NCBI GenBank assembly: GCA_017553815.1
Contig: JAFZJT010000288.1
Coordinates: forward strand, 1 to 18,342
Direction: 5' to 3'
Length of the DNA stretch: 18,342 bases
Source of the DNA: Clostridia bacterium
GTDB lineage: Bacteria > Bacillota_A > Clostridia > Christensenellales > CAG-138
Part shown: positions 1-17,277 of the stretch, piece after piece
Position numbering within the stretch: position 1 is the first letter of the stretch
Layout of the letters: each line of letters starts with the position of its first letter
Translations under genes and position numbers: made by a program
The notes under the pieces: generated by a model
What the model was told of the DNA's origin: nothing
What the model saw: only the letters and a program-made list of their open reading frames with translations
Databases searched by the model: none

Positions 1-639
1 ACCGAGCTTCTCATCTGCGGCGAATGCGGAACGCCCTACCGCCGATGCACATGGACGGCATCCGGCAAGAAAAAGATAGTCTGGCGCTGCATAAACCGCC
101 TCGACTTCGGCAAGAAGTACTGCCATAACTCACCGACCATCGAGGAAAGCGTACTTCAAGAAGCGATAATGGAAGCGATCAAGAACACCGCGCAGAGAAA
201 CACCGAACTGCTCGCCACTCTCAAGCTCCATATAGGCATGGGCTTGGAGAGCATGGAGACCGAGGACCGAAGCCTTGCGATACAGGTGCGGATCGCAGAG
301 ATCAACGCCGAATTCAAGGAGCTGCTCGAAACAATATCCGCAGATACGGCGGATATCTCATACTACGAGCAGCGCATGGGCGAGCTCTCCGTGGAAAAGC
401 AAAGCCTCGAAGCTGAACTCAAACAATATGCTGATGCACAAGAACGGCGCGATGCGGCGAAATCCCGCATGGACGAGATCGCCGCTGTGATCGATGCCCT
501 CGCCAATCACCCGATGACCTTCGATGATAGGCTCGTCCGGCAGGTGCTCGAATGCGTGATCGTTGAATCGAAGGATGTGATAAAGGTGGTGTTTAAGGGA
601 GGGATGGAAATATTCATCCTTCTCTATTATAGCGAATAG
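1..639 (+). CDS. Large serine recombinase, C-terminal fragment (5' end outside window)
   Basis: The reading frame is open from base 1 to the TAG at 637-639, giving 212 residues of a longer protein. The first visible residues form a zinc-ribbon with a CGEC knuckle (local residues 6-9) and two further cysteines at about 30 (WRC) and 41 (KYC). This is followed by a long charged helical stretch rich in Glu, Lys and Arg (about residues 75-150), consistent with the coiled-coil of large serine recombinases. In that family these C-terminal modules recognise the attachment site and control integration versus excision; the catalytic serine domain would lie upstream of the window. An internal ATG at 169 exists but the frame continues upstream, so it is not the start. 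Base composition is richer in G+C than the next gene. It probably belongs to the mobile element carrying the downstream cargo, but no attachment site could be identified. Confidence 0.85.
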   Translation, partial: TELLICGECGTPYRRCTWTASGKKKIVWRCINRLDFGKKYCHNSPTIEESVLQEAIMEAIKNTAQRNTELLATLKLHIGMGLESMETEDRSLAIQVRIAEINAEFKELLETISADTADISYYEQRMGELSVEKQSLEAELKQYADAQERRDAAKSRMDEIAAVIDALANHPMTFDDRLVRQVLECVIVESKDVIKVVFKGGMEIFILLYYSE

Positions 640-659: not shown

Positions 660-688
660 TTGACAAATTTATCAAAACAGTGTAAAGT
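660..688 (+). promoter_or_regulatory. Sigma-A-type promoter of the NTPase gene
   Basis: A perfect -35 box TTGACA (660-665) is followed after 17 nt by TAAAGT (683-688), which matches 4 of 6 positions of the -10 consensus. It starts 20 nt after the recombinase stop codon and leads into the ribosome binding site AGGAG (718-722) and ATG at 728. The cassette can therefore be transcribed independently of the recombinase. Confidence 0.6.
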
Positions 689-720
689 GTATTTGGTGAT
701 CTCCACAAACTTTCGCTAGG

Positions 721-816
721 AGTTAATATGAGCAATACGAATACATTTCATAAAAGGATTCGTCGTAGAGTTAATATGAGCAATGCGAATGTATTTCATA
801 AAAGGATTCTTCGTAA
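721..816 (+). repeat. Tandem 48-bp duplication spanning the start codon of the NTPase gene
   Basis: Bases 721-768 and 769-816 are direct tandem copies that differ at about five positions. Each contains AGTTAATATGAGCAAT, so the start codon, the sequence just before it and the first 16 codons are all duplicated. The product begins with two related 16-residue units, MSNTNTFHKRIRRRVN and MSNANVFHKRILRKLK. Only the upstream copy keeps a good AGGAG; the downstream ATG (776) is preceded by the weaker GTAGAG. Confidence 0.9.
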
Positions 817-3535
817 ACTTAAAATCGAGGCACTTTCGCCCAATGACCAATTAAACAAATCCAGAAAATGCTTATCCGCTGATTCACGGCAGGATTTTAA
901 AGCATATAATCATGTTTTCAAGCGCATGATGCGGGATAAGCGAATTACCAACATAGCGGTAACGGGTGAATTTGGCGTTGGAAAAAGCAGTATAATTCGT
1001 TCCGCTGATCATAATACATTTCCAAGGCACAGGTCGTTCCTGTATGTTTCATTAGTGGACTTTTACAACATATATGATTATTCTGCAGGCTTCGATAAAA
1101 ACGAGAATGAGAATAAGACTGAAGATGGTGCAATTCTTTTGCAAACGGACAGTGAGGTATCAACCCTTACTGAAGCGATTTCGTCACTGACGCGCGCAAT
1201 TGGCGCAGCGGACAAAAATGGTAGTGAAGATAATAGAAAAAACAGCAAACAAAAACTATCCCCAAAGACGAAAGAGGTTTCCAAGACAGATGCGCGTGAA
1301 GATTTTATCTACTGCTTTTTGAACCAGCTTCGTTCAAAGTACAGTAGTGTAAGGATGCGGAGATTTATCAAAGGTACAGTTTCACTCTCGCTTGCACTGT
1401 TCATCATATTAGGACTATGGCTATACTCGCCAAGTGGAGCGAATGGTTCAGCACCAGTAAATGACGTAGTGTCCTCTATTGCAACAGCAGATGTCGCACA
1501 ACCAGAAGAAACATCTGCTGAAGCAAATGGAGCGAATCAAACACCGAACAACGGTTCCAATGATAACACAACTGCATCGCCCGCGGTTCCTGAACAAAAT
1601 ATTTCGGAATATAGTTTTAAGAATTATATCAACGGGTTATCTGCAACTCTATTGAATGTTCCGTACTATCTTTCACAGCTTTTAGGACGGATAGCAGGTA
1701 AAACCGATGGAGGAGTTTTCGCTTGCACAAAGCATGAGTGTAATTTTTACGGCGTTTCGCCATTATTTGGTTTATTTGCTATCATGCTATTGTATTATGG
1801 TGTGTGGCAAGTCCTAAAGCTTATACGTTTAGAAGCGAAAATGAAGGAGCTAAACCTAAAATTTTTTGATGTTGATGCCAAACTATCTTTCGTTTCACAA
1901 GATCTGCCAATAGAAAAGAGCTGCCCCGAAATCATCAGCATTCTGAAAGAGCTATCTGGCACGATAAAAAACACAGTTATTTTTGATGATATGGACAGGC
2001 TGGGAAAGGATGTCTGCTATTCCCTTCTCACTAAGCTACGCGAGATAAATCATATACTTAACACCAGAACCCGCAAGACGGTTCGTTTCGTTTATCCTTT
2101 AAACAATGATATTTATGAGATCTCTCGGGGAACGAAGTTTTTTGATGCTATGATCCCTGTTATTTCACGTGTGGATAAAACCAATGCAGGTGATTATTTG
2201 TTTGGGCTAATTTGGGAGATGACGGGCATAGAGCTTCGCAATGCAACAAAGCCAAATGCTCAAAAAGGCGATATAACGTTTGATGGATTGGATGAAGATG
2301 TAGAGAAATTTGGCAATTTGATTGGAGCTTGTATTAATGACTATAGATCTATCCATCAAATTCTTAACGAGTTAGTCGTTTTGACAAAGCGTGGCCCTAA
2401 GGTGGAGCAATGTGATAATGCGGAGGAAATAGGCTTAGATAATGCATCAAAGTGTAGGAAAAAATTGTTGGAGAATCTTTCTTTCGCGTTATATAAGAAC
2501 CTGTTGCCAGAAGATATTGGAATATACTGTATCATTGAAGCGGAGCCAGCACGTAGAGTAGAACTTATCGAGAATCGTCTTATGCATAATATTGCGAAAA
2601 GAGATCGTGAAGTGCAGAAGGAAACCGTTAGCGCGAAGTCAGAGAATATGGGAAACTTAATCTCATTTATGCTCAAGAAGGGCTGGTTATCTGGAAATGA
2701 ATTCTATTCGTTGGGTCATGTGTCAAAGGGTTATGAGGATCAGGCAACGGACCTGCTCAAGAATCAGGAGTATGAAAATGCAGCAGCAGTTTTAAGTGAG
2801 GCAATAGAAAACTGTGAGATCAAAAAGTATGGCGATTATGCGACTGTAGATAGGAAAAAGAGAGTTGCAAGTTTTATGCATCACAAGGGTGTTTGCTTGT
2901 ATTATCAATCAATCGAATCCGCGGATTCTAAAGCAAAGTGTGCCCATACAGCGGCTGCTGTTTCGAGTCTTAAAGAAGCACTTAGTTACTGCCCGACTGT
3001 ATACAGTGATTTGTATAATAACATTTGCAGGATGCTCGTATCTATATCGGATGATGTCGATGACCCGATAGTCAAAAAAGCAATCCTTGTAGTAAAATCG
3101 CTAATTGATGAGAGTATAAGTGCAGGCGACCCAATATATATTGGCTTGGACGCAACTAGCCCAACCGATGGGGCTGACTCTATTGCAAGAAAACTCGATC
3201 CAACCTTCGTTGAGTGGAAAAAGATAACGGGAACTGATAAGTATATATGCAGTTCAGCGTTTGATCGTGATTGTGATTTGAGACTCGGAAAAATGTTGCC
3301 ACAGGATGACGGAACTGTTAAAACATTCATGTGGACATTAGGATACTTAAGCAAGGATGAATATGAGTCTAACAAACACACAATCGATCCGTGCGGTAGC
3401 CCATGGAGACTTCAATCCAAGAATGATGGTTATGTATCTAATGATGGGCTATTGATACCGGCTCCGCCCAATTGGGATGATATTCCGTGGCGTCCGGTAC
3501 TCGTTGATTTAAAATGCAATCATGAAAGGGAATGA
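728..3535 (+). CDS. KAP/YobI-like membrane-anchored P-loop NTPase
   Basis: A 935-residue protein with a Walker A motif GEFGVGKS (80-87) and a Walker B stretch VIFDDMDR (417-424). Between these two motifs lie two hydrophobic segments, about 215-233 and 344-361, flanking a roughly 110-residue Ser/Thr/Asn/Ala-rich loop. A P-loop domain interrupted by a pair of membrane helices is the hallmark of KAP NTPases, and the N-terminal region resembles the Bacillus YobI-type family. The NTPase would be cytoplasmic and the low-complexity loop exported. The C-terminal third (about 700-790) is helical with TPR-like spacing (for example AAAVLSEAIENC and AVSSLKEALSYC), suggesting a protein-binding platform. 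The ATG at 728 is chosen for its AGGAG at 5-nt spacing; the duplicated ATG at 776 is an alternative. KAP proteins include phage-exclusion factors such as PifA, so a defence role is plausible but inferred. Confidence 0.8.
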   Translation: MSNTNTFHKRIRRRVNMSNANVFHKRILRKLKIEALSPNDQLNKSRKCLSADSRQDFKAYNHVFKRMMRDKRITNIAVTGEFGVGKSSIIRSADHNTFPRHRSFLYVSLVDFYNIYDYSAGFDKNENENKTEDGAILLQTDSEVSTLTEAISSLTRAIGAADKNGSEDNRKNSKQKLSPKTKEVSKTDAREDFIYCFLNQLRSKYSSVRMRRFIKGTVSLSLALFIILGLWLYSPSGANGSAPVNDVVSSIATADVAQPEETSAEANGANQTPNNGSNDNTTASPAVPEQNISEYSFKNYINGLSATLLNVPYYLSQLLGRIAGKTDGGVFACTKHECNFYGVSPLFGLFAIMLLYYGVWQVLKLIRLEAKMKELNLKFFDVDAKLSFVSQDLPIEKSCPEIISILKELSGTIKNTVIFDDMDRLGKDVCYSLLTKLREINHILNTRTRKTVRFVYPLNNDIYEISRGTKFFDAMIPVISRVDKTNAGDYLFGLIWEMTGIELRNATKPNAQKGDITFDGLDEDVEKFGNLIGACINDYRSIHQILNELVVLTKRGPKVEQCDNAEEIGLDNASKCRKKLLENLSFALYKNLLPEDIGIYCIIEAEPARRVELIENRLMHNIAKRDREVQKETVSAKSENMGNLISFMLKKGWLSGNEFYSLGHVSKGYEDQATDLLKNQEYENAAAVLSEAIENCEIKKYGDYATVDRKKRVASFMHHKGVCLYYQSIESADSKAKCAHTAAAVSSLKEALSYCPTVYSDLYNNICRMLVSISDDVDDPIVKKAILVVKSLIDESISAGDPIYIGLDATSPTDGADSIARKLDPTFVEWKKITGTDKYICSSAFDRDCDLRLGKMLPQDDGTVKTFMWTLGYLSKDEYESNKHTIDPCGSPWRLQSKNDGYVSNDGLLIPAPPNWDDIPWRPVLVDLKCNHERE

Positions 3536-3609
3536 ATGTGAAGCAAGCGTATAGAACAAGCGAATTATGGATAGAGAATCGGTAGAAATCAGCGGATTAA
3601 GAAAAAAGC

Positions 3610-3638
3610 TTGACAGCTTGTCCTCCATATGTTATAAT
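3610..3638 (+). promoter_or_regulatory. Perfect-consensus promoter P1
   Basis: TTGACA (3610-3615), a 17-nt spacer, then TATAAT (3633-3638). It lies 75 nt after the NTPase stop codon; the intervening 3536-3609 shows no recognisable element. Its transcript would start near 3645 and meet a terminator-like hairpin at 3682-3718, before the second promoter. Confidence 0.8.
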
Positions 3639-3644
3639 ATATAT

Positions 3645-3718
3645 TGGGTTTAGGCATTGCGGGTGATACATTGTTTATGTGTGTTGCAGAAAAGGAAGGG
3701 TTGCAACAGTTTTTGTTT
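3645..3718 (+). ncRNA. Candidate short structured RNA of about 75 nt
   Basis: This interval is bounded by promoter P1 and by a hairpin with a T-run, and has no meaningful open reading frame. Two adjacent hairpins can be drawn: ATACAT (3666-3671) with ATGTGT (3677-3682, one G-U pair), and TGTTGCA (3682-3688) with TGCAACA (3702-3708). The 13-nt loop of the second is purine-rich and contains AAGGAAG (3692-3698), complementary to CTTCCTT (3734-3740) just in front of promoter P2. It could be a regulatory RNA, an RNA component of the neighbouring system, or just an attenuated leader. The family is not recognised. Confidence 0.35.
3682..3718 (+). terminator. Putative intrinsic terminator between P1 and P2
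   Basis: A 7-bp stem TGTTGCA/TGCAACA with a 13-nt loop is followed by GTTTTTGTTT. The stem is short and only moderately GC-rich, so termination may be partial. Confidence 0.45.
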
Positions 3719-3738
3719 AAATATATTGCGCCACTTCC

Positions 3739-3767
3739 TTGACAAATATTTCGCGCTTTGATATAAT
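3739..3767 (+). promoter_or_regulatory. Perfect-consensus promoter P2
   Basis: TTGACA (3739-3744), a 17-nt spacer, then TATAAT (3762-3767). It should drive the 70-residue gene at 3903 and probably the two genes after it, with an unusually long leader of about 130 nt before the first start codon. Confidence 0.8.
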
Positions 3768-3902
3768 AGCAAAGCTCGCATCTGCACGCAGGTTCGAGTG
3801 ATTGGATATTATAGAAGAAGAGAGTATTGGTTTAGCTTAACAGCGCAGAATAAATATTGCGTGGATTCTGTGTCTTATGTATTTAGTTTGGAGGTTATTT
3901 TG

Positions 3903-4115
3903 ATGATTAAGAAGAAGTATACATCGTTTGATGATTCCATTGATAATGCTACAGAGGCTCCGTACCCAATGGACTATAGAACGATCAGCAGCTCAAGATT
4001 TGAGGGTACATGGCCAAGGCCGTTTTGTAGCTCTGTAAACGAGAACTTGATGGATGACAATGATGACTCCTTCTATGAGATAGCTAAGAATTATTTAGAA
4101 GAGTTTTCCGTGTAG
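3903..4115 (+). CDS. Small acidic protein, 70 residues, unknown function
   Basis: The start ATG (3903) is chosen because GGAGG (3890-3894) lies 8 nt upstream. The frame remains open back to a GTG at 3798, but that codon has no ribosome binding site and would give an unlikely 35-residue extension. The product begins MIKKKYTSF, has an aromatic and proline-rich middle (APYPMDYR, GTWPRPFC) and a strongly acidic tail (LMDDNDDSFYEIAKNYLEEF). No membrane segment or known domain is seen. It is the first gene after promoter P2 and precedes the 271-residue and metallopeptidase genes. It could be a regulator, inhibitor or substrate of its neighbours, but nothing in the sequence decides this. Confidence 0.6.
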   Translation: MIKKKYTSFDDSIDNATEAPYPMDYRTISSSRFEGTWPRPFCSSVNENLMDDNDDSFYEIAKNYLEEFSV

Positions 4116-4243
4116 GCTGTTATAGCTGGATCAGTAATGTTGTTTTTATTGATGCTAAGTAATGGATGGTGCATTAATATGTTGGTTTCCGTCAGTTACT
4201 TTGGCATCTTTGTTATATTCTGAGATAGTGAAAGAATACGATC

Positions 4244-5059
4244 ATGGACAGAAAAATACTGACAGCAAAGTTTAAAAAAGCTAAAGAATGCACTAAAAAA
4301 AATGAAGCAGAATGCAATACTGTTTTTGCAATTAAAGATGCTTACATAGCCATGGGGCACTATGATGTTGTTGTTTTCAATCATGTTTCAAGGAACGAAG
4401 AACAGGTTCTTAATGTTGGCGAACGATGTTTTCTTCCGTTTGACGAAGCCAGTATCGCAGAGGCGGTAGGAACTTCCGTGTACCGTTTTTTGGTCATGAT
4501 CAACATCCTGCACAAGGATTCCGTTGAAAAGAATATAAAGGAAACGGCGCAGGAATTCGTATCCCAACTGGAAAGTTATGGGAGCAAAGGTAATGTGTAC
4601 AATCTGTATAGATCGCTTGATAATTGCGATATCGCATGCATAATCGACAGCGATGATTACCCCGGAACTTTGGAGTTGGTGAGAAAATGTGCGGATTCAA
4701 TTGAAACCCCGACCGTCTATTTTTTCACCGTGCCCATGCTGAATGCTAGGGTGTTGGATGAAACGAAAATCATCAATGCTGATATAGAGACTGAGGTGCC
4801 GGATACTGCTCTGCTTGTCAGAACAACAGTAAAGGAGCATCGGAAGATCGGTGAGCTTCTGTCTGAAGAGAAGCTGCTGAAAGGGTTGAGAAAAACATCA
4901 AAATATATTATGTTTGGTGCTAACGATATTGTAGTCGATATGGGTTGTTACAGCGCTTATAAGGTGATAACATACTACAGAAATGTTATGAACTATATAG
5001 CTGATTACTTGGCCGTTCTGTATTCGGCCGAAGTCGAGATAATGAAGAAAAAGAGTTAA
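4244..5059 (+). CDS. Unrecognised 271-residue protein of the cassette
   Basis: A soluble, mixed alpha/beta protein with no signal peptide or membrane helix; I do not recognise a family. Three similar segments occur at roughly 90-100-residue intervals: GHYDVVVF (38-45), NCDIACIIDSDD (127-138) and GANDIVVDM (225-233). Each places an Asp before a short hydrophobic strand, hinting at three related alpha-beta modules, perhaps ferredoxin-like as in small sensory domains. The acidic cluster DSDD (135-138) is the most obvious candidate for a polar active or binding site. The start has only a weak GAAAG upstream; 128 nt separate it from the previous gene with no clear promoter. The stop codon is 17 nt before the metallopeptidase start, so these two are almost surely co-transcribed. 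Confidence 0.7.
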   Translation: MDRKILTAKFKKAKECTKKNEAECNTVFAIKDAYIAMGHYDVVVFNHVSRNEEQVLNVGERCFLPFDEASIAEAVGTSVYRFLVMINILHKDSVEKNIKETAQEFVSQLESYGSKGNVYNLYRSLDNCDIACIIDSDDYPGTLELVRKCADSIETPTVYFFTVPMLNARVLDETKIINADIETEVPDTALLVRTTVKEHRKIGELLSEEKLLKGLRKTSKYIMFGANDIVVDMGCYSAYKVITYYRNVMNYIADYLAVLYSAEVEIMKKKS

Positions 5060-5076
5060 GTAAGGAAGCGTGTTTT

Positions 5077-6579
5077 ATGTATCCCGAAAATGAAAAAACT
5101 GATATCTCTTCTAAACTCGTTGAGTTTAGAAAGAAGGTTGACAAGATAAACAACATTAATTCTCTATTGCGGATGGCGCTCTGCTCGCAGATGAAATCGT
5201 TGCTCGAATTGAAGGAAAGTGGCTTTTTTGCGATAATCTGCAACAACTCGATCGAGGCGTTGGATGCAGTTGTTGATGGTGCCATCAAATCGCAGAGCAG
5301 AATAGATGTGTCAATCAGCAGAGGACTTGAAGAGTTTGTAGAAGCTCTGAATGTGACATTGCAATCATACCTGTTTACCGATAGTACTATGCTTGAGTTT
5401 TTAAGCGCTAATACTGAAGTATATGGGGTAAGGAATAATCTTTCACTTGAATATGCCAGATTCATTTCGGACTGCATCAGCTTTCTTGAATCAGATGCAG
5501 ATCACCGAACAAAGTATCTGTTTACACCGAGCCTTTCCTCGAGTGTCTTTGTGGCTCGAATCTGGAACGTTGAGCCGCAGGTTTGTATTATAAAAATCCC
5601 AACAGAAACGATGCTAACATCTCCGAAGAAGCTTTTGTTCAGGATAGCGCATGAGGTTTCTCATTACGCAGGGCGTAGTTTTAGAAAATGCGAGGAACGA
5701 AACAAGGTAATAAGAGAACTATGCACTATTATCTTTGTACAGTATTCTGTTAATTATTTTAATCTGCAAATCGGGCGAAGCAGTGTCGAGGAGACAAATC
5801 GAATTAAAAAGGAACGCAAAGAGCGCATACTGAATGCGATAAGACATGTGAGAAATGGTTATAGTTTCGAGGATATGTACTCTGTTTTTTGCAAGGACCT
5901 GAGGGTTATTTTTCAAAACATTATTGAAAGTGTCGAGTTCATCGAGGCATTCAATCTTGGGTTACGCAACTCGAGTGAGATATATGATTATTCTGAAGAA
6001 ATGACCCAGAGACAAAAAGATTTCTCTTTAGATTCATATATGCAAGATCTTAGAAAGAATGTATTAGTTATTCAAGACTTCTTTATGCAGATGATAAAGG
6101 AATGCACAGCTGATATAATTTCGGCTAAAATCCTGGGAATATCGGATGCTTGTGAATACATAAGAATAATGTCTTCAGATAGCTTTGATAGTGATCATAA
6201 AGAGAACGTTGGCCACTGCATTCATGATATTCTCAAAGATGATACAACTGGCGACTTTGGTGTTTTTTCCAACCTTGTTCGCAAGTTGATCGTCGCAGGA
6301 GTCATCAGCCGCAAAGGCTGTTTTACCGAAGAAGATAAAAACACGATTTTTTCGTTTAAACTTGCTGACAATCATTGGGGACTTCTACGTACTACCAGTG
6401 ATTTTTTCCTTGGTTTTATCAAGCATATGATTTGGACCGACAGTCTTGATATGCTTTTTGATTTCCTTAATAAGGTCAATCTGCAGGAAAGATTAGATGG
6501 AGATAATCCTTGTAGGGATATGTTTAACAGTGTGAGATTCACCGAGCATTCTGATGACTATTACGAGTCGATTATTTAA
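5077..6579 (+). CDS. Putative HExxH zinc metallopeptidase, 500 residues
   Basis: The segment LLFRIAHEVSHYAGRSF contains HEVSH (192-196), the HExxH signature in which two His bind zinc and Glu activates water. About 145 residues later ECTADIISAKILG (342-354) resembles the ExxAD motif that supplies the third zinc ligand in gluzincins. Between them is a helical, charged insertion (about 200-340). The first 120 residues and the C-terminal 150 are largely helical and not recognised. No signal peptide or membrane helix is visible, so it should act in the cytoplasm. The start ATG follows AAGGAAG (5062-5068) with good spacing. Length and motif spacing do not match a common housekeeping protease, and the neighbours (a membrane NTPase and two unknown proteins) suggest a dedicated system in which proteolysis is the effector or trigger. 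The HExxH call is direct; zinc binding and peptidase activity are inferred. Confidence 0.7.
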   Translation: MYPENEKTDISSKLVEFRKKVDKINNINSLLRMALCSQMKSLLELKESGFFAIICNNSIEALDAVVDGAIKSQSRIDVSISRGLEEFVEALNVTLQSYLFTDSTMLEFLSANTEVYGVRNNLSLEYARFISDCISFLESDADHRTKYLFTPSLSSSVFVARIWNVEPQVCIIKIPTETMLTSPKKLLFRIAHEVSHYAGRSFRKCEERNKVIRELCTIIFVQYSVNYFNLQIGRSSVEETNRIKKERKERILNAIRHVRNGYSFEDMYSVFCKDLRVIFQNIIESVEFIEAFNLGLRNSSEIYDYSEEMTQRQKDFSLDSYMQDLRKNVLVIQDFFMQMIKECTADIISAKILGISDACEYIRIMSSDSFDSDHKENVGHCIHDILKDDTTGDFGVFSNLVRKLIVAGVISRKGCFTEEDKNTIFSFKLADNHWGLLRTTSDFFLGFIKHMIWTDSLDMLFDFLNKVNLQERLDGDNPCRDMFNSVRFTEHSDDYYESII

Positions 6580-6582
6580 AAT

Positions 6583-6643
6583 GAATCACCGTTCGGGGTT
6601 CGAACCACCTGGGGCGGACAACAAACGGTGATTCTTTGTTTTT
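6583..6643 (+). terminator. Terminator hairpin of the cassette (repeat copy 1)
   Basis: GAATCACCGTT (6583-6593) pairs perfectly with AACGGTGATTC (6624-6634) around a 30-nt loop that itself contains the palindrome GGTTCGAACC (6597-6606). TTTGTTTTT follows (6635-6643). It begins 3 nt after the metallopeptidase stop codon and so should end the operon. Confidence 0.7.
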
Positions 6644-6815
6644 GCTTTTATTATATCAGTTTTTTGACTATCTTTATCTGAATTCAAATCGGTCAAAAAT
6701 CAAAAAAGTTAAAAACAGAAATCTAAAACGATCCGAACCACTCTGTCCGATTTGAACTGATCAAAAAACCTAATTGTGTGTTGGGAAAACAAAAGTCTAT
6801 TTCCGGTTACGTCTT

Positions 6816-6877
6816 GAATCACCGTTCGGGATCTGAACCCCCTGGGTTCGGACAGCAAACGGTGATTCTTTGTTTTT
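6816..6877 (+). terminator. Terminator hairpin (repeat copy 2)
   Basis: GAATCACCGTT (6816-6826) and AACGGTGATTC (6858-6868) form the same 11-bp stem as copy 1, followed by TTTGTTTTT (6869-6877). The loop differs from copy 1 but holds its own hairpin GAACCC/GGGTTC (6835-6849), so loop structure is kept while sequence has changed. Confidence 0.65.
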
Positions 6878-7181
6878 GCTTGTTTTATATGTGTTTTCTG
6901 ACTATCGTTTCCTGAATTCAAACCGGACACAAAAGTCAAAAAAGTTCAAAACGGAAATCGAAAACGAAAAACCTTTACGATCCGAACCCCATTGTCCGAT
7001 TTGAATTGATCAATAAAAACTAATTCTTTGTTGGAAAAACAAAAGTCGATTTCCGGTTATGTCTTGTTTCACGGCTGAACTTCGACTACAACATTAGCGG
7101 AACAATACAATATAGAACACTGTGTTTTCCAAGACGGCATGTGGTTACGGTAGTTCAACTCCGCCCGCAAAAATCCGGAAA

Positions 7182-7779: not shown

Positions 7780-9300
7780 ATGCCTAACGAAAAGGATCTG
7801 AGCAGAATAACCGAACTGACGGAGCGGATAGAGGCTCTGCCGAGGGGCTATGTTTCAAAAAAGACCATCAGCGGTAAAACATACTGGTATCACCAATGGT
7901 CGCAAAACGGCAGAAAGCAGAGCCGGTATCTGCACGACGGCGAGATAGAGCCGCTTGTGAAGCTTATAGAACAGCGAAAAGCACTGCAGGCGGAGCTGAG
8001 AGAGCTCAGATCGAGTGCGGACGGTGCGCCGGTAGGTGAAAGGCAGACGGAGGAACAAAAGTTGAAATACATTCTGATGCATAAGAAAACGGAAGTGGTT
8101 GAGATCGAGCTTGACGACGTTACGGGCTTCATTCAGCGTATCGGCGAGGTGTACTCGTCCGCGCATCTGCCCGTCGGCGTTTCCGCTGTTCGCGGTCGCC
8201 ACGATCGAGCGGATCTCAATGAATGGTGGACCGACAGATCCATCCCCGCAAGCAGGTCTGGCATACGGGAGGCGCTTGAAACGCTTGAGATATCGAGTAC
8301 GAAAATGCTGCTCGTTCGCTGTTTGGGACTCAGCCTCTCGGATCAGTATTGGATAAAGCCGGAGGGCTCCGAGCTGTCTTGGGAGAGCATAAACTTCTTC
8401 AACAATCCCTTCTCGGACGATATAGGCGACGTGTTGTTCGGTGGAAACAGGAAAGCCGATGCGCTTGATTTCAGCTCGCCTGACAACACCTCGGACGGAA
8501 ACCTCAAAAAGAGATGGAAGATAATGGACGGCAGGCGCTGTCTGATCAAGGGCGGTTCCAACCCGTTCCGTCAGCAGCCGTTCAACGAGGTCATAGCGGC
8601 GGGAATAATGGAGCGCCTCGGCATAGCGCACGTTCCATATTCCGTGATATGGCATAAGGAAGCGCCGTACTCGGTTTGCGAGGATTTCGTGACGGCTGAA
8701 ACGGAGCTTATCCCCGCTTGGCGCATCATGAAAACACAGAAGAAGCCGAACAACGTGTCGATCCATGCGCATTTTCTGCGCTGCGCCGAAGCTCTCGGCA
8801 TACCGGGAGTTCAAGCCTTCATCGACCGAATGATAACCGTGGACTATATCATCGCCAACGAGGACAGACACCTCAACAATTTCGGCGCGATAAGGAACGC
8901 GGAAACCTTGGAATGGCTCGGAATGGCGCCGATCTACGACAGCGGCTCGTCCCTGGGCTACGACAAGGTCGCCGCGGAGATACGTTCCTCAAGGAACGTG
9001 ACCTGCAAGCCGTTCAAAAACGACCATGAGGAACAGTTGAAGCTTGTCTCCGATCTCTCATGGTTCGATCCAAGCAGGCTCTCGGATGTTCATGCGCTCA
9101 TCGAGGATACCCTCTCCGAAGGCGGCGCGGGCGAATACATCGACAAAAACCGTATAACTGCCATAGCCGATGCCGCCGAAAGACGGATAAGGCATATCGC
9201 GGATATCGCCGTTTCCAATAGGCAAAAGCATACGGATTCCACACTCAACGACGTTGAGGAAGACGTGGCAGAGGATTATTTACCTAAAACGAGCGAGTAA
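7780..9300 (+). CDS. HipA-fold kinase-like protein with N-terminal extension
   Basis: A 506-residue protein. Residues 1-80 carry the pattern GYVSKKTISGKTYWYHQW, then GRKQSRYL, then a charged helix (IEQRKALQAELREL); this resembles the short DUF6788-type module seen in phage and recombinase-linked proteins. The middle (about 145-225) includes a segment of the kind preceding HipA-like cores (LGLSLSDQYWIKPEG). The kinase core shows CLIKGG with likely ATP-binding Lys257, the catalytic loop NEDRHLNNFG (360-369) with Asp362 and Asn367, and a metal-binding APIYDSGSSLG (383-393) with Asp387. HipA enzymes phosphorylate proteins such as a tRNA synthetase and normally pair with an HTH antitoxin HipB; no such partner is adjacent. 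It has its own promoter and terminator, so it is a one-gene unit. Substrate and toxicity are unknown. Confidence 0.8.
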   Translation: MPNEKDLSRITELTERIEALPRGYVSKKTISGKTYWYHQWSQNGRKQSRYLHDGEIEPLVKLIEQRKALQAELRELRSSADGAPVGERQTEEQKLKYILMHKKTEVVEIELDDVTGFIQRIGEVYSSAHLPVGVSAVRGRHDRADLNEWWTDRSIPASRSGIREALETLEISSTKMLLVRCLGLSLSDQYWIKPEGSELSWESINFFNNPFSDDIGDVLFGGNRKADALDFSSPDNTSDGNLKKRWKIMDGRRCLIKGGSNPFRQQPFNEVIAAGIMERLGIAHVPYSVIWHKEAPYSVCEDFVTAETELIPAWRIMKTQKKPNNVSIHAHFLRCAEALGIPGVQAFIDRMITVDYIIANEDRHLNNFGAIRNAETLEWLGMAPIYDSGSSLGYDKVAAEIRSSRNVTCKPFKNDHEEQLKLVSDLSWFDPSRLSDVHALIEDTLSEGGAGEYIDKNRITAIADAAERRIRHIADIAVSNRQKHTDSTLNDVEEDVAEDYLPKTSE

Positions 9301-9644: not shown

Positions 9645-11789
9645 ATGAACACTTCAGAATATCTTGCTCATATCTCTGAGGACAAAAGGCAGCAGACAGT
9701 CCTAGAGCATCTTGAAGGAACGGCAGCGTTATGCGGCGGATTCGCTTCTGCTTTTGGCTGCCGCGAACATGGTGAGGCGATTGGACTGATGCACGATGTG
9801 GGGAAATGCTCCGATGCCTTTCAAAAGAGGCTTTATGGCGGAAGTGTGGTAGATCATGCAACTGCTGGTGCTCTTGAATATGCCAAATTCGACCTGTTGT
9901 GGGCATCATGCTGTATAATCGGTCATCATGGCGGCCTTCCTAATGTTGGGAGCGAGATGGATGGCGATGACAGCCCAACCATGTTCGGGAGACTAAAAAG
10001 AGCGATTCTAAACGGTGCTATACCGGAATATCATCTTCCGATTGCGTCACGCAAGGTTCATTCTCCGGAAGGCTATGGGAAAGATGGCTTAACGGATTCC
10101 TTTATCATACGAATGCTTTATTCCTGCCTTGTGGATGCTGATTATTTGGACACCGAGGCATTTATGCTCGGCGGCTCAAGCGTACGCTCGAAGGGCGAAA
10201 GTATGATTGCTTTGCGTGACAAGCTAAGTGAATTCATTAAGCCGTGGTTTCCGCCGAAAAATGAATTGAATCGTTTGCGCTGTTCCATTCTTAAAAGCTG
10301 CATTCAAAAGGGCGCGGGGAAAAGAGGGCTCTACTCGCTGACCGTTCCCACAGGCGGTGGAAAGACGATCGCCTCTCTTGCATTTGCGCTCAATCATGCG
10401 GTCGAAAACGGATTGGACCGCGTTATCTACGTTATCCCGTACACTTCAATAATCGAACAAACTGCCGACGTTTTCCGGATGGTGCTTGGAGAAAACAACG
10501 TGCTTGAGCATCATTCCGGCTCCGCTGTTGACGTTCCGGATGGAGCAAGCACGCGGACACAATTCAATGCGCTTGCCGCAGAAAACTGGGATGCCCCAAT
10601 CATAGTTACTACTGCAGTACGCTTTTTTGAATCGCTTTATGCAAACCGCTCCTCCGCTTGCAGAAAGCTCCATAATATCGCAAACAGCGTAATAATATTC
10701 GATGAAGCCCAGATGCTTCCTTCGGCGCACTTACGTCCCTGCGTGGCCGCAATGTCGAAGCTTGCTGCAAATTTCAGATCAACGCTCGTACTATGCACGG
10801 CTACTCAGCCAGTGCTTGCGCCACTGTTTTCACAGTATGCTCCGAAGCTTGCTGTGGACGAGATCTGCCCCGATACAGATGGACTTTACCGTGCGCTTAA
10901 GCGCTGCATAATAGATTTCGCGGGCAAGCTTTCAAACGAGGCGCTTGCTTCAAAGCTCGCAAGCGCCGAGCAGGTGCTCTGCATAGTGAACAGCAGGAAG
11001 GCGGCGCAGGAGCTTTACCGCCTGCTTCCTCGCGAGGGCAGCTTCCATCTTTCAACGCTGCTTTATCCGGAGCACAGGCGCGAACTACTCATCGAGATAC
11101 GCAAAAGGCTTTCCGAAGGGCTTCCGTGCCGCGTAGTTTCGACTTCGCTGATCGAGGCGGGAGTTGACGTAGATTTTCCGCTGGTTTATAGGGAAATGAG
11201 CGGTTTGGATTCGATCCTTCAGGCTGCGGGCAGATGCAATAGGGAAGGCAAGCGTCCTGTTGAAGCAAGCAGGACGACCGTTTTTGAAAGCGAATACCCG
11301 TCGCCCGCAATGCTTGGAGTGAATATTGGAGCGGCTAAGGAAACGATCTCGATGCATTTGGACGTGACCACACCAGAGGCGATCGAGTGTTACTTCAGAT
11401 CATTCCTCGATCTTTCCGACAAACAGCATGATGTTTTTGATATTGTCGGTGCATTTGAAAAAGGTATTCATGGCTGCATGCTTCCATTCAAAACAGTGGC
11501 GGAGAGCTTCAGTTTCATAAACGATGCATCGAAAACCGTCTACATTCCAACCGAGAACAATGCAGCGGATATCGCGGCGCTGAAAAACGGCGTTCGCACA
11601 AAGGCTCTGTTTCGCCGCCTTGGCCGTTTCGGCGTTGGTATATACGAAAAACACTTTAACGAACTGCTTGCTTGCGGTGATATAGTTTTGCTTGAAGGCG
11701 AAGCAGCCGTGCTTGAAAACGCCGCTCTCTATGATAAAAACACGGGGCTTTCATCGGAACCGGATAAAGGAAAGGCTCTGTTTTATTAA
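9645..11789 (+). CDS. cas3: CRISPR-associated helicase-nuclease Cas3, type I-C
   Basis: Cas3 is recruited by Cascade bound to its target, unwinds the DNA and degrades it. In this 714-residue protein the N-terminal HD nuclease domain shows HLEG (22-25), MHDVGK (49-54) with the metal-binding His50-Asp51, and IIGHHGG (91-97). The superfamily 2 helicase follows with Walker A VPTGGGKT (234-241), Walker B IFDEAQ (351-356), motif III CTATQP (384-389), motif V TSLIEAGVDVD (500-510) and motif VI QAAGRCNREG (526-535). All expected motifs are intact. The length is in the usual I-C range. The start follows GAGGTG (9635-9640). It is the first gene of the operon, 27 nt ahead of cas5c. Confidence 0.97.
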   Translation: MNTSEYLAHISEDKRQQTVLEHLEGTAALCGGFASAFGCREHGEAIGLMHDVGKCSDAFQKRLYGGSVVDHATAGALEYAKFDLLWASCCIIGHHGGLPNVGSEMDGDDSPTMFGRLKRAILNGAIPEYHLPIASRKVHSPEGYGKDGLTDSFIIRMLYSCLVDADYLDTEAFMLGGSSVRSKGESMIALRDKLSEFIKPWFPPKNELNRLRCSILKSCIQKGAGKRGLYSLTVPTGGGKTIASLAFALNHAVENGLDRVIYVIPYTSIIEQTADVFRMVLGENNVLEHHSGSAVDVPDGASTRTQFNALAAENWDAPIIVTTAVRFFESLYANRSSACRKLHNIANSVIIFDEAQMLPSAHLRPCVAAMSKLAANFRSTLVLCTATQPVLAPLFSQYAPKLAVDEICPDTDGLYRALKRCIIDFAGKLSNEALASKLASAEQVLCIVNSRKAAQELYRLLPREGSFHLSTLLYPEHRRELLIEIRKRLSEGLPCRVVSTSLIEAGVDVDFPLVYREMSGLDSILQAAGRCNREGKRPVEASRTTVFESEYPSPAMLGVNIGAAKETISMHLDVTTPEAIECYFRSFLDLSDKQHDVFDIVGAFEKGIHGCMLPFKTVAESFSFINDASKTVYIPTENNAADIAALKNGVRTKALFRRLGRFGVGIYEKHFNELLACGDIVLLEGEAAVLENAALYDKNTGLSSEPDKGKALFY

Positions 11790-11816
11790 AAATTATAAAT
11801 GAAAGGAAGTGAAAAC

Positions 11817-12479
11817 ATGTCATTTCGCGTTGAGGTCTGGGGCGAGTATGCCTGCTTCTCCAGACCGGAAATGAAGGTGGAAAGAGTTAGCTACGATGTG
11901 ATGACGCCGTCTGCAGCAAGAGGCCTGCTTGAAGCCATCTACTGGCATCCGGGTATGCGCTGGGTGATAGACCGCATCCGCGTGGTGAATCCAATCCGCT
12001 TCACAAACATCAGGCGCAATGAAGTAACGGATAAAGCAAACGCAAGCTCTGCTATGTCTGCGGCAAACAGAAATGAGCTTCCAGCGCCGATCATATCCTC
12101 CGAGTGCATAGCACAACGTGCTACTATGGCTCTGCGTGACGTGCGCTACGTGATCGAGGCGCATTTCGAAATGACGGGTGAGGCGAACCCTACTGATAAT
12201 GAGGGCAAATTCGCCGACATTATGCGTAGGCGGCTAGAAAAAGGACAGTTCTACCATCAACCCTGTTTTGGCACAAGGGAGTTTATTGCGTACTTCAAAC
12301 CATGCGATGCAGTTCCGGAGTGTCCCTCGGAACTTCGCGGCGAGCGCGATCTCGGCTGGATGCTGCTCGATATGGATTATTCGGACAGATCTAATATCAA
12401 GCCGATGTTTTTCAGAGCCTCGCTCCGCGACGGTGTGCTCGATGTGCCGAGGCTAGGCAGTAAGGTGGTGGTAGGATGA
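11817..12479 (+). CDS. cas5c: Cas5c (Cas5d), Cascade subunit and likely crRNA-processing nuclease
   Basis: In type I-C, which lacks Cas6, Cas5c cuts the repeat RNA and then stays on the crRNA 5' handle in Cascade. This 220-residue protein begins MSFRVEVWGEYACFSRPEMK, typical of the family, with PSAARGLLEAIYW (31-43) and QRATMALRDVRYVIEAHF (100-117), and the conserved GQFYHQPCFGTREF (143-156). Tyr42 and His116 are candidates for the Tyr and His of the catalytic set described for Bacillus Cas5d, but I could not align them rigorously. The ATG at 11817 is chosen over one 18 nt upstream because AAGGAAG (11803-11809) sits in front of it and the family starts there. It overlaps cas8c by 4 nt (ATGA), implying translational coupling. 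Confidence 0.95.
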   Translation: MSFRVEVWGEYACFSRPEMKVERVSYDVMTPSAARGLLEAIYWHPGMRWVIDRIRVVNPIRFTNIRRNEVTDKANASSAMSAANRNELPAPIISSECIAQRATMALRDVRYVIEAHFEMTGEANPTDNEGKFADIMRRRLEKGQFYHQPCFGTREFIAYFKPCDAVPECPSELRGERDLGWMLLDMDYSDRSNIKPMFFRASLRDGVLDVPRLGSKVVVG

Positions 12480-14272
12480 TACTTCAGGCGCTTGTTAAAC
12501 TCTATGAGGATCTGCTATCTCGCGGCGAGATCGCATCGGAAGGCTGGAGCCAGGTCAAAATCAGTTATGCTGTCTGCATCGATGAAAACGGCTCGGCACT
12601 TCAGGTCATACCGCAGGTAGTGGAGGAGCTTCGCGGCAAGAAAACCGTGCTGTCTTCGCGGCAGGTCATGCTTCCCGCTCCGGTAACGAAATCCAGTGGT
12701 ATAGTCTCAAACTTTCTTTGGGAAAATGCCGACTATCTTCTCGGAATTCCAAAGGATCCCGAAGACTCGGAAAAATCCGCCAAGCGCTTTGCCGCCTGCC
12801 GCGAGAAACACCATGAGCTCTTGGACGGCATTGAGAGCGATGCAGCAAAGGCGGTACTTGCGTTCTTCGATAATTGGGACAACGCAAATGCGGCGGAGCA
12901 TCCCGAAACACGCGAAATTGCGGATGAACTTCGCAAGGGCTGTAATCTGACCTTCAGATTCAAAGCAGGATTTGTTTCCGATGACGAGGCGATCAAAAGA
13001 GCGTGGAACAATCATTACAGTGCAAGTTCAGGCGAGAAACTTCAATGCCTTGTGACAGGCGAATACGGGCCGTATGAGCCGACACATCCCAAAATCAAGG
13101 GTGTAAATGGCGCACAGTCCTCGGGAGCATCGATAGTTTCATTCAATGCGCCTGCATTTTGTTCCTATGACAGGGAGCAGAATGCCAATGCTCCTGTTGG
13201 TAAATATGCTTCCTTTGCCTATACCACGGCGTTGAATTATCTGCTTGCAGACAAGAACTATGTTCAGCGCATAGGCGATGCGACCGTCGTTTTCTGGGCT
13301 GAAGGAGCAAAGCCGCAGTACAGAGCGCTCTCACTTGCCGCGCTTTTCGGCAACACCGAAAGCAGCGGCTTCACGGATGATGAACTGCAAACTGCAGTAG
13401 CGCGGCTTGCCAAAGGGCTTCCGGTAGAGAAACTCGACGTCGAGGCGGACAGAACTTTCTATATTCTCGGTCTTTCGCCTAACTCTTCAAGGCTGTCGGT
13501 AAGATTCTTTTTGAAGGGCAGCTTCGGCAGCTTTATGAAGAATATCAACGACCACCATGAAAGAATGAGGATAGACAAGCCCTCGTTTGATAAGTTTGAG
13601 ACCGTTCCGCTATGGAAGCTGCTTTCCGAAACCGTTAGACCGAAAAGGGACAATGACGAAAAGGCTAGTATTACCGTGAATCCATTGCTTGCCGGAGCAG
13701 TTACAAGAAGCGTATTCACAGGAATCCAATATCCGAGTTCTCTTATAGAAAGCATTATGCTTAGGGTGCGAACTGATCATATTGGAGGCAAGCGTAAAGA
13801 AGAGACTGAGAAGCGCGAGTTTGCTATTAGAGAATACCATAGAGCTGCCATTATTAAGGCGTATTATCTTAAGAACCCAAACCAAGGCTGTCCAAAGGAG
13901 GTATTGACAGTGAGTCTTAATGAATCCAGTACAAATACTGCCTATAATCTTGGCAGGCTGTTCTCGGTTTATGAAGCCGTGCAGCAAAAAGCAAATCCCG
14001 ATATCGGGACAACAATAAGAGACAAGTATTTCTGCTCCGCAGCGGCAACGCCCGCAACTATCTTCCCCGTGCTCAACAATCTCTGCAAGATGCACCTGCG
14101 AAAGCTCGATGATGATGGCTTGAGAATCTATTTCGAAAAGCTTATCGGCGAGATTAAGGGTAAATTCGGTGAGAAATACCCGCTTAGGCTCAGCCTTCCA
14201 GAGCAAGGCTCATTTGACCTCGGATACTACCATCAAACACAAAAACGCTTTACCAAAAAGGAGGAAAACTGA
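12476..14272 (+). CDS. cas8c: Cas8c (Csd1), large Cascade subunit
   Basis: The large subunit recognises the PAM and helps load target DNA into Cascade. The 598-residue product carries the family landmarks MLPAPVTKSSG and FLWENADYLLG (65-90), then CLVTGEYGPYEPTHPKIKG (191-209), GAQSSGASIVSFNAPAFCSY (212-231) and YASFAYTTALNYLL (244-257). The C-terminal 120 residues are the helical small-subunit region, also translated on its own (see Cas11c). The start ATG overlaps the cas5c stop codon; AAGGTGG (12462-12468) in the end of cas5c can serve as ribosome binding site. cas7c starts one nucleotide after its stop codon. Confidence 0.95.
   Translation: MILQALVKLYEDLLSRGEIASEGWSQVKISYAVCIDENGSALQVIPQVVEELRGKKTVLSSRQVMLPAPVTKSSGIVSNFLWENADYLLGIPKDPEDSEKSAKRFAACREKHHELLDGIESDAAKAVLAFFDNWDNANAAEHPETREIADELRKGCNLTFRFKAGFVSDDEAIKRAWNNHYSASSGEKLQCLVTGEYGPYEPTHPKIKGVNGAQSSGASIVSFNAPAFCSYDREQNANAPVGKYASFAYTTALNYLLADKNYVQRIGDATVVFWAEGAKPQYRALSLAALFGNTESSGFTDDELQTAVARLAKGLPVEKLDVEADRTFYILGLSPNSSRLSVRFFLKGSFGSFMKNINDHHERMRIDKPSFDKFETVPLWKLLSETVRPKRDNDEKASITVNPLLAGAVTRSVFTGIQYPSSLIESIMLRVRTDHIGGKRKEETEKREFAIREYHRAAIIKAYYLKNPNQGCPKEVLTVSLNESSTNTAYNLGRLFSVYEAVQQKANPDIGTTIRDKYFCSAAATPATIFPVLNNLCKMHLRKLDDDGLRIYFEKLIGEIKGKFGEKYPLRLSLPEQGSFDLGYYHQTQKRFTKKEEN
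13894..13901 (+). promoter_or_regulatory. Internal ribosome binding site within cas8c
   Basis: AAAGGAGG followed by T (13894-13902) is the closest match to the anti-Shine-Dalgarno complement in the cas operon, yet it lies deep inside the cas8c coding sequence. An in-frame GTG starts at 13910, exactly 8 nt after the GG. It sets the start of Cas11c. Confidence 0.85.
13910..14272 (+). CDS. cas11c: Cas11c, small Cascade subunit translated from inside cas8c
   Basis: In type I-C systems the small subunit is made by internal translation initiation within cas8c, and Cascade contains both products. Here GTG at 13910 is codon 479 of cas8c, in frame, with an excellent AAAGGAGG 8 nt upstream. The product would be 120 residues beginning (M)SLNESSTNTAYNLGRL, predominantly helical, the size expected for Cas11c. 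A TTG at 13904 is in frame too but only 2 nt from the ribosome binding site, so it is unlikely. It would bind along the Cascade belly and stabilise the non-target strand. The assignment rests on position, size and initiation signals, not on a separate domain match. Confidence 0.85.
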   Translation: MSLNESSTNTAYNLGRLFSVYEAVQQKANPDIGTTIRDKYFCSAAATPATIFPVLNNLCKMHLRKLDDDGLRIYFEKLIGEIKGKFGEKYPLRLSLPEQGSFDLGYYHQTQKRFTKKEEN

Positions 14273-14273
14273 T

Positions 14274-15161
14274 ATGGAACCCATCAAAAACCGCTATGAT
14301 TTTATCGTTCTCTTCGATGTTGAGAACGGCAACCCAAACGGTGATCCCGATGCGGGCAATATGCCTCGCATCGATCACGAAACAGGCTTTGGACTGGTTA
14401 CCGACGTTTGCCTTAAGCGGAAGATCAGGAACTATGTTGAGACTGTTCGCGAGGACGAGCACGGCTATCGCATCTATATCAAGGCTGGCGTGCCGCTCAA
14501 CAGGAGCGATGCCGAGGCCTGCGAGCATTTCGGCGCTACACCCGAAAAACTCAAGGAACGCAAAAAGTCCGACCCTGATATAGACCGCAAGCTTCGCGAC
14601 TATATGTGCGAAAACTTCTATGATATCCGCACTTTCGGCGCTGTAATGACAACCTTTGTCAAAGGTGCGCTGAACTGCGGTCAGGTTCGCGGTCCCGTTC
14701 AGCTTGGCTTTGCAAGGAGCATCGATCCCGTGTTTCCCCAGGATGTTACTATAACTCGTGTTACTATTACGACCGAGAAAGATGCAGAGAAAAAAAGCAC
14801 CGAGTTTGGCAACAAATATATTTTGCCATATGCTCTTTACCGCTGCGAAGGCTTTGTATCCGCAAATCTTGCACGTAAGACCACAGGCTTTTCAGAGGAT
14901 GATCTCGAGCTGCTTTGGGAAGCAATTCTCAATATGTTCGAGAACGACCGCTCTGCCGCAAGGGGCATGATGGCGGTGCGCGAGCTCATCATCTTCAAGC
15001 ATGATTCCGAGCTCGGCAATGCGCCCGCGCATAAGCTCTTCGACCTTGTTCGCATCACGAGGGATCCCGAACTGATCGCGCCGCGCTCCTATTCCGACTA
15101 TACGGTTGAGATTGACGAGAGCGGACTCCCCGCGGGCGTCAGTATCATCAGGAAGAGTTGA
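14274..15161 (+). CDS. cas7c: Cas7c (Csd2), Cascade backbone subunit
   Basis: Multiple Cas7 copies polymerise along the crRNA spacer and form the Cascade backbone. The 295-residue protein opens with RYDFIVLFDVENGNPNGDPD (7-26) and continues PRIDHETGFGLVTDVCLKRK (31-50), the family signature, then DIRTFGAVM (117-125) and GQVRGPVQLGFARSIDPV (136-153). The ATG at 14274 is chosen for AAGGAGG (14258-14264) with 9-nt spacing and because the family begins there; the frame is open for 35 codons further upstream but inside cas8c. The strong ribosome binding site fits the high copy number needed. The stop codon overlaps the cas4 start by one base. Confidence 0.96.
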   Translation: MEPIKNRYDFIVLFDVENGNPNGDPDAGNMPRIDHETGFGLVTDVCLKRKIRNYVETVREDEHGYRIYIKAGVPLNRSDAEACEHFGATPEKLKERKKSDPDIDRKLRDYMCENFYDIRTFGAVMTTFVKGALNCGQVRGPVQLGFARSIDPVFPQDVTITRVTITTEKDAEKKSTEFGNKYILPYALYRCEGFVSANLARKTTGFSEDDLELLWEAILNMFENDRSAARGMMAVRELIIFKHDSELGNAPAHKLFDLVRITRDPELIAPRSYSDYTVEIDESGLPAGVSIIRKS

Positions 15162-15817
15162 TGTATAACGAGGAAAACTTCCTTCCCCTCTCAGGCCTGC
15201 AGCATTTTCTGTTCTGCCGCCGCCAATGGGCGCTGATCCACATTGAGCAGCAGTGGGCGGAAAACATCAAAACAGCCGAGGGCAGGGTTATGCACGAGCG
15301 GGCGCACAGCGACGAGACCGAGAAGCGCGGAAACAAGCTCACGGTTCGCGCTTTGCGCATCCGCTCTGCGGAGCTTGGGCTGAGCGGGCAGTGCGATGTG
15401 GTTGAATTTCTCTCCGCCAAGGATGGAACTCCGCTTCCCGGCCGCGATGGGCTGTTCATCCCCTACCCCATCGAGTACAAGCGCGGCTCTGCTAAATCGC
15501 ATAATGCGGATCGAGTTCAGCTCTGTGCTCAAGCGATGTGTCTTGAGGAGATGCTTGCTTGCAATGTGCCCGAAGGTGCGCTGTTCTATGGAGAAACGCG
15601 AAGGCGCGAGGTCGTGTGCTTTACGGATGAACTGCGAAATACCGTAACCCAGGCCGCTTCCGAGATGCACGCACTATATGCGCGTGGCTATACGCCGAAG
15701 GTGAAGACCGGAGCCTTCTGCAAAAGCTGCTCGCTTTCGGAAATATGCCTGCCCAAGCTTATGCGCACCCGCTCCGCCAAGGAGTATCTGGAGGATGCAT
15801 TATGCGAAGATTGCTGA
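15161..15817 (+). CDS. cas4: Cas4, PAM-selecting adaptation nuclease
   Basis: Cas4 works with Cas1-Cas2 to trim prespacers and ensure that they carry a correct PAM and orientation. The 218-residue protein has the iron-sulfur cysteines at Cys19 (FLFCRRQW) and Cys187, Cys190 and Cys196 (CKSCSLSEIC). The RecB-like nuclease residues are Asp79 (GQCDVVEF), Glu105 and Lys107 (YPIEYKRG), followed by RVQLCAQAMCLEE (118-130). All are intact. The ATG at 15161 (preceded by GGAAGAG) is preferred to a TTG one codon earlier. It overlaps cas1 by 16 nt. Confidence 0.95.
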   Translation: MYNEENFLPLSGLQHFLFCRRQWALIHIEQQWAENIKTAEGRVMHERAHSDETEKRGNKLTVRALRIRSAELGLSGQCDVVEFLSAKDGTPLPGRDGLFIPYPIEYKRGSAKSHNADRVQLCAQAMCLEEMLACNVPEGALFYGETRRREVVCFTDELRNTVTQAASEMHALYARGYTPKVKTGAFCKSCSLSEICLPKLMRTRSAKEYLEDALCEDC

Positions 15818-16833: not shown

Positions 16834-16834
16834 C

Positions 16835-17125
16835 ATGCTGGTTTTGATAGCATATGATGTGAATACCGAAACCGCAGCGGGACGCAGCCGTTTGAGAAAG
16901 GTGGCAAAGCTGTGCGTGGATCATGGGCAGCGCGTTCAAAACAGCGTTTTTGAATGCATGTTGGATCCCGCGCAGCTGAAGCTGCTTCAGCACAAACTGC
17001 TCAATACCATAGACCCGGAGCATGATAGCTTGAGATTTTATAATCTCGGAAACAACTATAACACACGCATCGAGCAATTCGGATGCGGCAAGAGCTACGA
17101 TCCACAGGATACTCTGATGGTGTAG
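16835..17125 (+). CDS. cas2: Cas2, adaptation complex subunit
   Basis: Cas2 dimers bridge two Cas1 dimers and set the spacer length. The 96-residue product starts MLVLIAYDVNTET, with the conserved Asp8 after the first strand, then GQRVQNSVFEC (31-41), and ends shortly after YDPQDTLMV. Its length is standard. The start lies one base after the cas1 stop, and it is the last cas gene before the leader. Confidence 0.97.
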   Translation: MLVLIAYDVNTETAAGRSRLRKVAKLCVDHGQRVQNSVFECMLDPAQLKLLQHKLLNTIDPEHDSLRFYNLGNNYNTRIEQFGCGKSYDPQDTLMV

Positions 17126-17277
17126 CTCCTGCGCGAACCGTAAGTAAACGGTAAAACCACGGCGTGTTCGCGCGAAAAACAGGTTTTTTGCCCTGTTCTT
17201 GGTCGGTTTGATTCGGCAGAGAACCATATTGACACAGTATTATGTGTCATGCTGAATGTTTAATGCAACATTTAGCT
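17126..17277 (+). promoter_or_regulatory. CRISPR leader
   Basis: The 152 bp between cas2 and the first repeat have no ORF. Hairpins can be drawn from GCGCGAAC/GTTCGCGC (17131-17138 and 17166-17173), enclosing ACCGT/ACGGT, and from AACAGG/CCTGTT (17178-17183 and 17192-17197). A TTGACA lies at 17229-17234, but no clear -10 box at the right distance is seen. The repeat-proximal end is AT-rich, as usual for leaders that carry the array promoter and the integration signals. Confidence 0.8.
17230..17249. promoter_or_regulatory. Inverted repeat in the leader
   Basis: TGACACA (17230-17236) and TGTGTCA (17243-17249) are exact inverted arms around GTATTA. The left arm overlaps the TTGACA box, 28 bp before the first repeat. 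It could be an operator or a site for a host factor assisting integration. Confidence 0.55.

Follow-up and report, generated by a model that had tools for sequence, protein, structure and literature searches.

A short Tmn-like NTPase and a putative sensor-protease pair as two neighbouring candidate defence modules beside a type I-C CRISPR-Cas locus

Contig JAFZJT010000288.1 of the Clostridia bacterium assembly GCA_017553815.1, analysed here over its 18,342 nt (the window), carries four plus-strand genes at positions 660–6643, with the end of a large serine recombinase gene on one side and a strong hairpin on the other. They encode a membrane NTPase, a 70-aa acidic protein, a 271-aa protein and a 500-aa predicted zinc peptidase (Table 1). 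In our preferred reading, to which we give a probability of about one half, they form two neighbouring candidate defence modules, namely a stand-alone Tmn-like NTPase (module A) and a sensor-protease pair (module B). An anti-phage function is suggested for both by analogy with their relatives and neighbours. The membrane NTPase of module A would use NTP and respond on its own to infection at the membrane. In module B, the 271-aa protein, predicted to be ferredoxin-like, would bind a ligand or partner and gate the M48-like zinc protease; once released, the protease would cleave a host or phage protein and growth would stop. The 70-aa protein, encoded behind twin strong promoter matches, would be the inhibitor or substrate of module B.

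That the 271-aa and 500-aa proteins form a unit is indicated by homologues in which they are one chain. In two of the six clusters of peptidase homologues (P0005 and P0006), the 271-aa protein makes up the N-terminus of a single polypeptide of 774–776 aa, at 40 and 44% identity. The two genes are separated by 17 bp in the window, and this separate form recurs in homologues of 53–63% identity; P0003 and P0008, as well as P0004 and P0009, lie pairwise on contigs of equal size (5,620 and 4,076, respectively). The family is rare, with six clusters, the window's own included, among ~5.8 billion sequences in a search that depends on shared 5-residue words. The 271-aa protein shows no significant sequence relationship to solved structures, and it differs from the dimeric alpha-beta barrel and ferredoxin-like families (TRAP, HmoB, HemQ/Cld, LsrG, GYD) in that it sits with a protease. 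Two further ideas about its architecture were dropped: a repeat origin of three putative ferredoxin-like modules, for which profile comparison found similarity only in the overlap left between the first two pieces, and a GxYD-like motif, read by eye in each module and not supported.

For the 500-aa protein, the initial annotation had proposed an HExxH metallopeptidase, and this assignment is borne out. The protein carries HEVSH (His192) and ECTAD (Glu342 and Asp346), the pattern HExxH...ECxAD occurs in all six clusters, and H192, E193, H196, E342 and D346 are invariant throughout their alignment, which includes the window's own cluster. HExxH and the distal Glu are the predicted zinc ligands of this putative zinc protease. 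Pfam Peptidase_M48 hits the HExxH site below threshold in four of the six clusters (best 16.2 bits against 20.3) and matches neither the window peptidase nor P0004. Foldseek with the peptidase model returned nothing significant; weak structural matches include Ste24p, ZMPSTE24, BepA, abylysin and BlaR1. Like the M48 gluzincins Ste24, BepA and abylysin, the protein combines HExxH with a distal ExxAD, but it differs from them in falling below the Pfam cut-off, in the position of E342 146 positions after H196, in helical extensions that flank its core at either end, in having no membrane segment by hydropathy, and in being paired with, or fused to, the 271-aa module.

The upstream gene had been described as a KAP-like membrane NTPase, which holds, with YobI-ATPase and Tmn as the nearest named relatives. 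Its product scores above the cut-off for Pfam YobI-ATPase (PF20693; 120.5 bits, E = 1.6e-34, cut-off 27) and below it for KAP_NTPase (PF07693; 15.1 bits, cut-off 20), and it matches PADLOC Tmn partially (E = 9.3e-20), in two stretches of which the best covers model positions 273–354 of 1273. The sequence contains a Walker A motif (TGEFGVGKSS, with Lys86) and a Walker B motif (IFDDMDR), located at residues 63–72 and 401–408 of the 919-aa form, and hydropathy places two hydrophobic stretches between them (198–216 and 329–347 in the same form). The splitting of Walker A and B by two membrane segments, as noted initially, is therefore confirmed, and it is a hallmark of an already known kind: Tmn and YobI-ATPase proteins have the same P-loop core with two membrane helices in this place. 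PMC11846954 describes two transmembrane segments in the same position and notes that how exactly Tmn confers defence is unexplored. Some plasmid homologues carry the annotation 'anti-phage transmembrane ATPase'.

Whereas Tmn and YobI-ATPase proteins reach ~1,200 aa, the window NTPase has ~919 aa. Its identity to four plasmid homologues is 22–28%, with the best agreement in the first ~600 residues; the extended C-terminus of these ~1,200-aa proteins has no counterpart in the window NTPase, whose C-terminal ~300 residues are its own and give no convincing alignment to them. Accordingly, the Tmn match is not full-length and does not take in the long C-terminal region. A loop of ~110 residues, by eye rich in S, T, N, P and A, lies between the two membrane helices. 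Judged by its sequence, the window NTPase is a short variant of the YobI/Tmn kind.

Several further features of this NTPase family were observed. An in-frame 48-bp tandem duplication (92% identical; window 720–815) repeats the first 16 codons of the window gene, so that two starts are possible, at 728 and 776. Two NTPase relatives in the class searched (L093 and L094) have a P-loop of the form GxxSAGKS instead of GxxGxGKS, and a simple Walker A pattern is missing in 13 of the 80 NTPase loci considered below, perhaps partly through P-loops of this type. Two Tmn/YobI-type loci from Sphingobacterium and Pedobacter (L060 and L061) have in common a 338-aa gene, 85% identical, 34–37 bp 3′ of the NTPase, which is possibly a partner gene of the latter.

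Module B is set apart from module A by two promoter-like sites of sigma-70 type, both matching the consensus at 12 of 12 positions and located in the gap that follows the NTPase stop (3535) and precedes the other three genes. Promoter-like sites are more frequent in the window than in shuffled sequence (34 found, 19.9 expected), with 12/12 reached in three only; the third of these, with a spacer of 18, lies in front of the HipA-like gene. The initial annotation had joined all four genes in one system and had named repeated co-occurrence with the KAP gene as its own check. No such co-occurrence was seen among 80 NTPase loci on genome contigs (the best 80 of at least 379 relatives in at least 587 stretches, so closer relatives may be missing), none of which encodes anything recognisably related to either protein of the pair. 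The search for the pair covered frames of at least 60 residues in 88 loci (1.54 Mb), the 80 NTPase loci among them, and gave best E values of 0.2 and 0.042. What survives of the four-gene proposal is the 271/500 pairing, strengthened by the two fused homologues, and what is not supported is that the NTPase belongs with the pair.

The NTPases compared are only 23–35% identical to that of the window in the best segment, and they are mainly of the long Tmn/YobI type, since 69 of the 80 loci have NTPase ORFs of 1,062–1,303 aa (window, 919–935 aa). This weakens the case for two separate modules: with distant NTPases, and only the best 80 kept, the absence of the pair is suggestive, not decisive. 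A same-strand ORF of at least 50 aa starts within 150 bp downstream of the NTPase in 31 of the 80 loci, and four annotated plasmid NTPase loci have no partner gene in common by name. ORFs with the pattern HExxH...E..[ACGS]D occur within 8 kb of the NTPase in four of the 80 loci. All four were read and none resembles the window peptidase; those in L032 and L076 look like BlaR1/M56 proteins, that in L072 is ArdC-like and that in L082 is similar to ribosomal protein L25.

The small acidic protein of the initial annotation exists as an acidic, coding-like ORF, but the GTG start listed at 3798 had to be replaced, as its sequence context makes a start at 3903 (70 aa) most likely. The in-frame codon score of this ORF is 0.18, within the range of its neighbours (0.06–0.23), and the other five frames are negative. 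Queried both from 3798 and as the 70-aa form, the protein matches nothing in Pfam, PADLOC or PHROGs and gives only a chance-level match in NCBIfam. With no relatives found, whether it serves as inhibitor or substrate of the peptidase can only be guessed from its position, its charge and the promoter matches. The substrate role has a precedent in a zincin-like metallopeptidase, encoded beside actinobacterial VMAP-ternary and FtsH-ternary conflict systems, whose cleavage target is a small partner protein that diverges rapidly (PMC7159879). As described there, these systems resemble the window in having a metallopeptidase and a small protein near an NTPase; they differ in the kind of NTPase, and the 70-aa protein ends in NYLEEFSV, without an FxSxx tail. 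The gaps around the small gene contain no Rfam match at gathering score, and their folding is not striking (z of −1.5 at 3645–3740, 0.2 at 3774–3902 and −1.9 at 4116–4243).

No homologue of the peptidase or the 271-aa protein was accepted in viral contigs, genome contigs and 15 chosen genomes, and none was found in plasmids, for which the peptidase was the only one of the pair queried, or in phages, queried with P0006. No member of the 271/500 family was accepted in 391 + 31 + 375 genomes, which are draws from one class and two orders with some genomes in more than one draw. None of the genomes covered by these searches is known to bear the family, so the negative results stand without a positive control. 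Two candidates were discarded along the way: a weak match in one of the 391 genomes (L089; E = 0.004, model positions 14–69, one internal stop) was taken as chance, and the only match of the A2 profile (one of the 391 genomes, E = 6.6e-5) was rejected, its locus consisting of genes that are presumably of flagellar type. The NTPase matched in 5 of the 391 genomes (29–36% identity). It was not found in viral contigs with single-protein patterns, an NTPase alignment (A3) gave three loci there, and phages gave no match. The whole stretch, compared as DNA, had no match among plasmids.

These results bear on several alternatives to the two-module reading. If the four genes were a single system after all, the NTPase would sense infection and switch on the peptidase, with the 271-aa and 70-aa proteins as adaptor and inhibitor or substrate. 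Their common strand, GC content and placement between recombinase and hairpin speak for this, as do NTPase-peptidase pairings in STAND and MoxR conflict systems, with KAP NTPases among the related putative sensors (PMC10907252), and the fact that metallopeptidases serve, though rarely, as effectors of NTP-dependent conflict systems (PMC7159879). We nevertheless regard it as unlikely in view of the two perfect promoter matches that separate the NTPase from the rest, the lack of a recognisable peptidase or 271-aa relative in all 80 distant NTPase loci, and the lack of a partner gene common by name to the four plasmid loci. Alternatively, module B may serve a mobile element as a regulatory or maintenance protease, leaving the NTPase as the sole defence gene. 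Such a protease could cleave a repressor, as ImmA does, or act with the 70-aa protein in a toxin-antitoxin-like manner. The adjoining serine recombinase and the twin promoter matches ahead of the small acidic ORF would fit, but Pfam detects no DNA-binding domain in the four genes, and homologues are missing from the viral contigs, plasmids (peptidase query) and phages (P0006 query) in which element-maintenance genes would be expected, so that we consider this explanation improbable.

A bolder version, and in our estimate a decidedly improbable one, would make the genes a new defence class, in which an M48-like zinc protease is gated by a ferredoxin-like ligand sensor (GYD/RAM-like) and restrained by a small acidic protein acting as inhibitor or pseudo-substrate. 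The KAP-type NTPase next to it would possibly be the trigger, and infection, signalled at the membrane or by a small molecule, would lead to cytoplasmic proteolysis. Finally, the island could be decaying, with a shortened Tmn, a 271/500 pair that is a broken fusion gene, and no working component. The missing C-terminal half of Tmn, the tandem duplication at the NTPase start and the fused 271/500 form in relatives are what one would expect from decay; all frames are open, though, codon use is coding-like throughout and the motifs are intact. The recurrence of the separate 271/500 form at 53–63% identity moreover argues that the two genes have long been separate and functional, and we see very little chance that decay is the explanation.

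The surroundings agree with the two-module reading of a defence function. As claimed initially, the neighbourhood is defence-like, which is supported by the type I-C CRISPR-Cas locus and the HipA_C protein matching PADLOC PDC-M03A. ORFs, GC content and hairpin folding likewise bear out that the four genes share one strand, are AT-rich and run from a recombinase to a likely terminator. Their GC content is 0.385–0.405, compared with 0.485–0.569 in seven measured downstream genes, a contrast that fits a foreign origin, and the stretch was probably acquired horizontally. The hairpin at its end is more stable than shuffled sequences (z = −5.0; 0 of 200 as stable), although it is absent from the list of a simple terminator scan. 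An intergenic segment of ~235–250 bp is present there as a tandem duplicate (6580–7072; matched pieces 79–89% identical), and both copies form a strong hairpin, with z = −5.0 in one and −4.1 in the other, that has a T-rich tail behind it. Searches of the window for tRNAs and for Rfam families at gathering score were negative.

Table 1. Features of the four-gene stretch and its surroundings, in window coordinates.
Feature	Position	Strand	Evidence or remark
Large serine recombinase, C-terminal part	1–639		At window start; PHROG integrase, 4.5e-25
KAP-type (YobI/Tmn-like) P-loop NTPase	728–3535 (935 aa) or 776–3535 (919 aa)	+	PF20693, PADLOC Tmn, alignment, hydropathy
Promoter-like site, TTGACA-17-TATAAT, TG before second hexamer	3610–3638	+	12/12; consensus match only
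Second promoter-like site, TTGACA-17-TATAAT, TG before second hexamer	3739–3767	+	12/12; consensus match only
70-aa acidic protein, charge −7	3903–4115	+	GGAGG 8 bases before ATG; codon score
271-aa protein, putative sensor	4244–5059	+	Predicted tandem ferredoxin-like / dimeric alpha-beta-barrel-like modules
500-aa M48-like gluzincin zinc peptidase (predicted), HEVSH ... ECTAD	5077–6579	+	Motifs, sub-threshold Pfam, weak structural matches
Hairpin followed by T-rich tail, likely terminator	6583–6637	+	−30 kcal/mol, z −5.0
HipA_C protein	7780–9300		Pfam HipA_C and PADLOC PDC-M03A match
Type I-C CRISPR-Cas, cas3-cas5c-cas8c-cas7-cas4-cas1-cas2	9645–17125		
CRISPR repeat array	from 17277 on		Whole type I-C locus with array, 9645–18233

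The initial annotation knew of no described system with this exact composition, and our literature search found none either: in the parts of the sources that were available, neither a ferredoxin-like module paired or fused with an M48-type peptidase nor a KAP-type NTPase beside such a pair came up. That M48-type peptidases occur near defence genes is already known (PMC12255303, in the available part). The RRDM island of E. coli (RptR-RMS-DarTG-M48) is described there as horizontally acquired and phage-protective. It combines a type I restriction system with DarTG and a predicted M48-family metallopeptidase, to which no function is assigned there, and this gene association recurs in other genomes. 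Going by this description, it resembles the window in that an M48-type peptidase is encoded at the margin of an acquired island, but the peptidase has a restriction system and DarTG as neighbours, and the available text does not mention such an NTPase or a 271-aa partner. An M15-family peptidase is listed among predicted, unvalidated defence domains (PMC13092281).

In conclusion, as a shortened relative of Tmn whose C-terminal region differs and whose membrane helices enclose a large loop, the window NTPase would be a useful natural variant for dissecting the Tmn mechanism. For the rare 271/500 family, the natural fusion provides a clear, testable sensor-protease hypothesis, and a tractable sensor-protease pair could help to explain why M48-type peptidases travel with defence genes.
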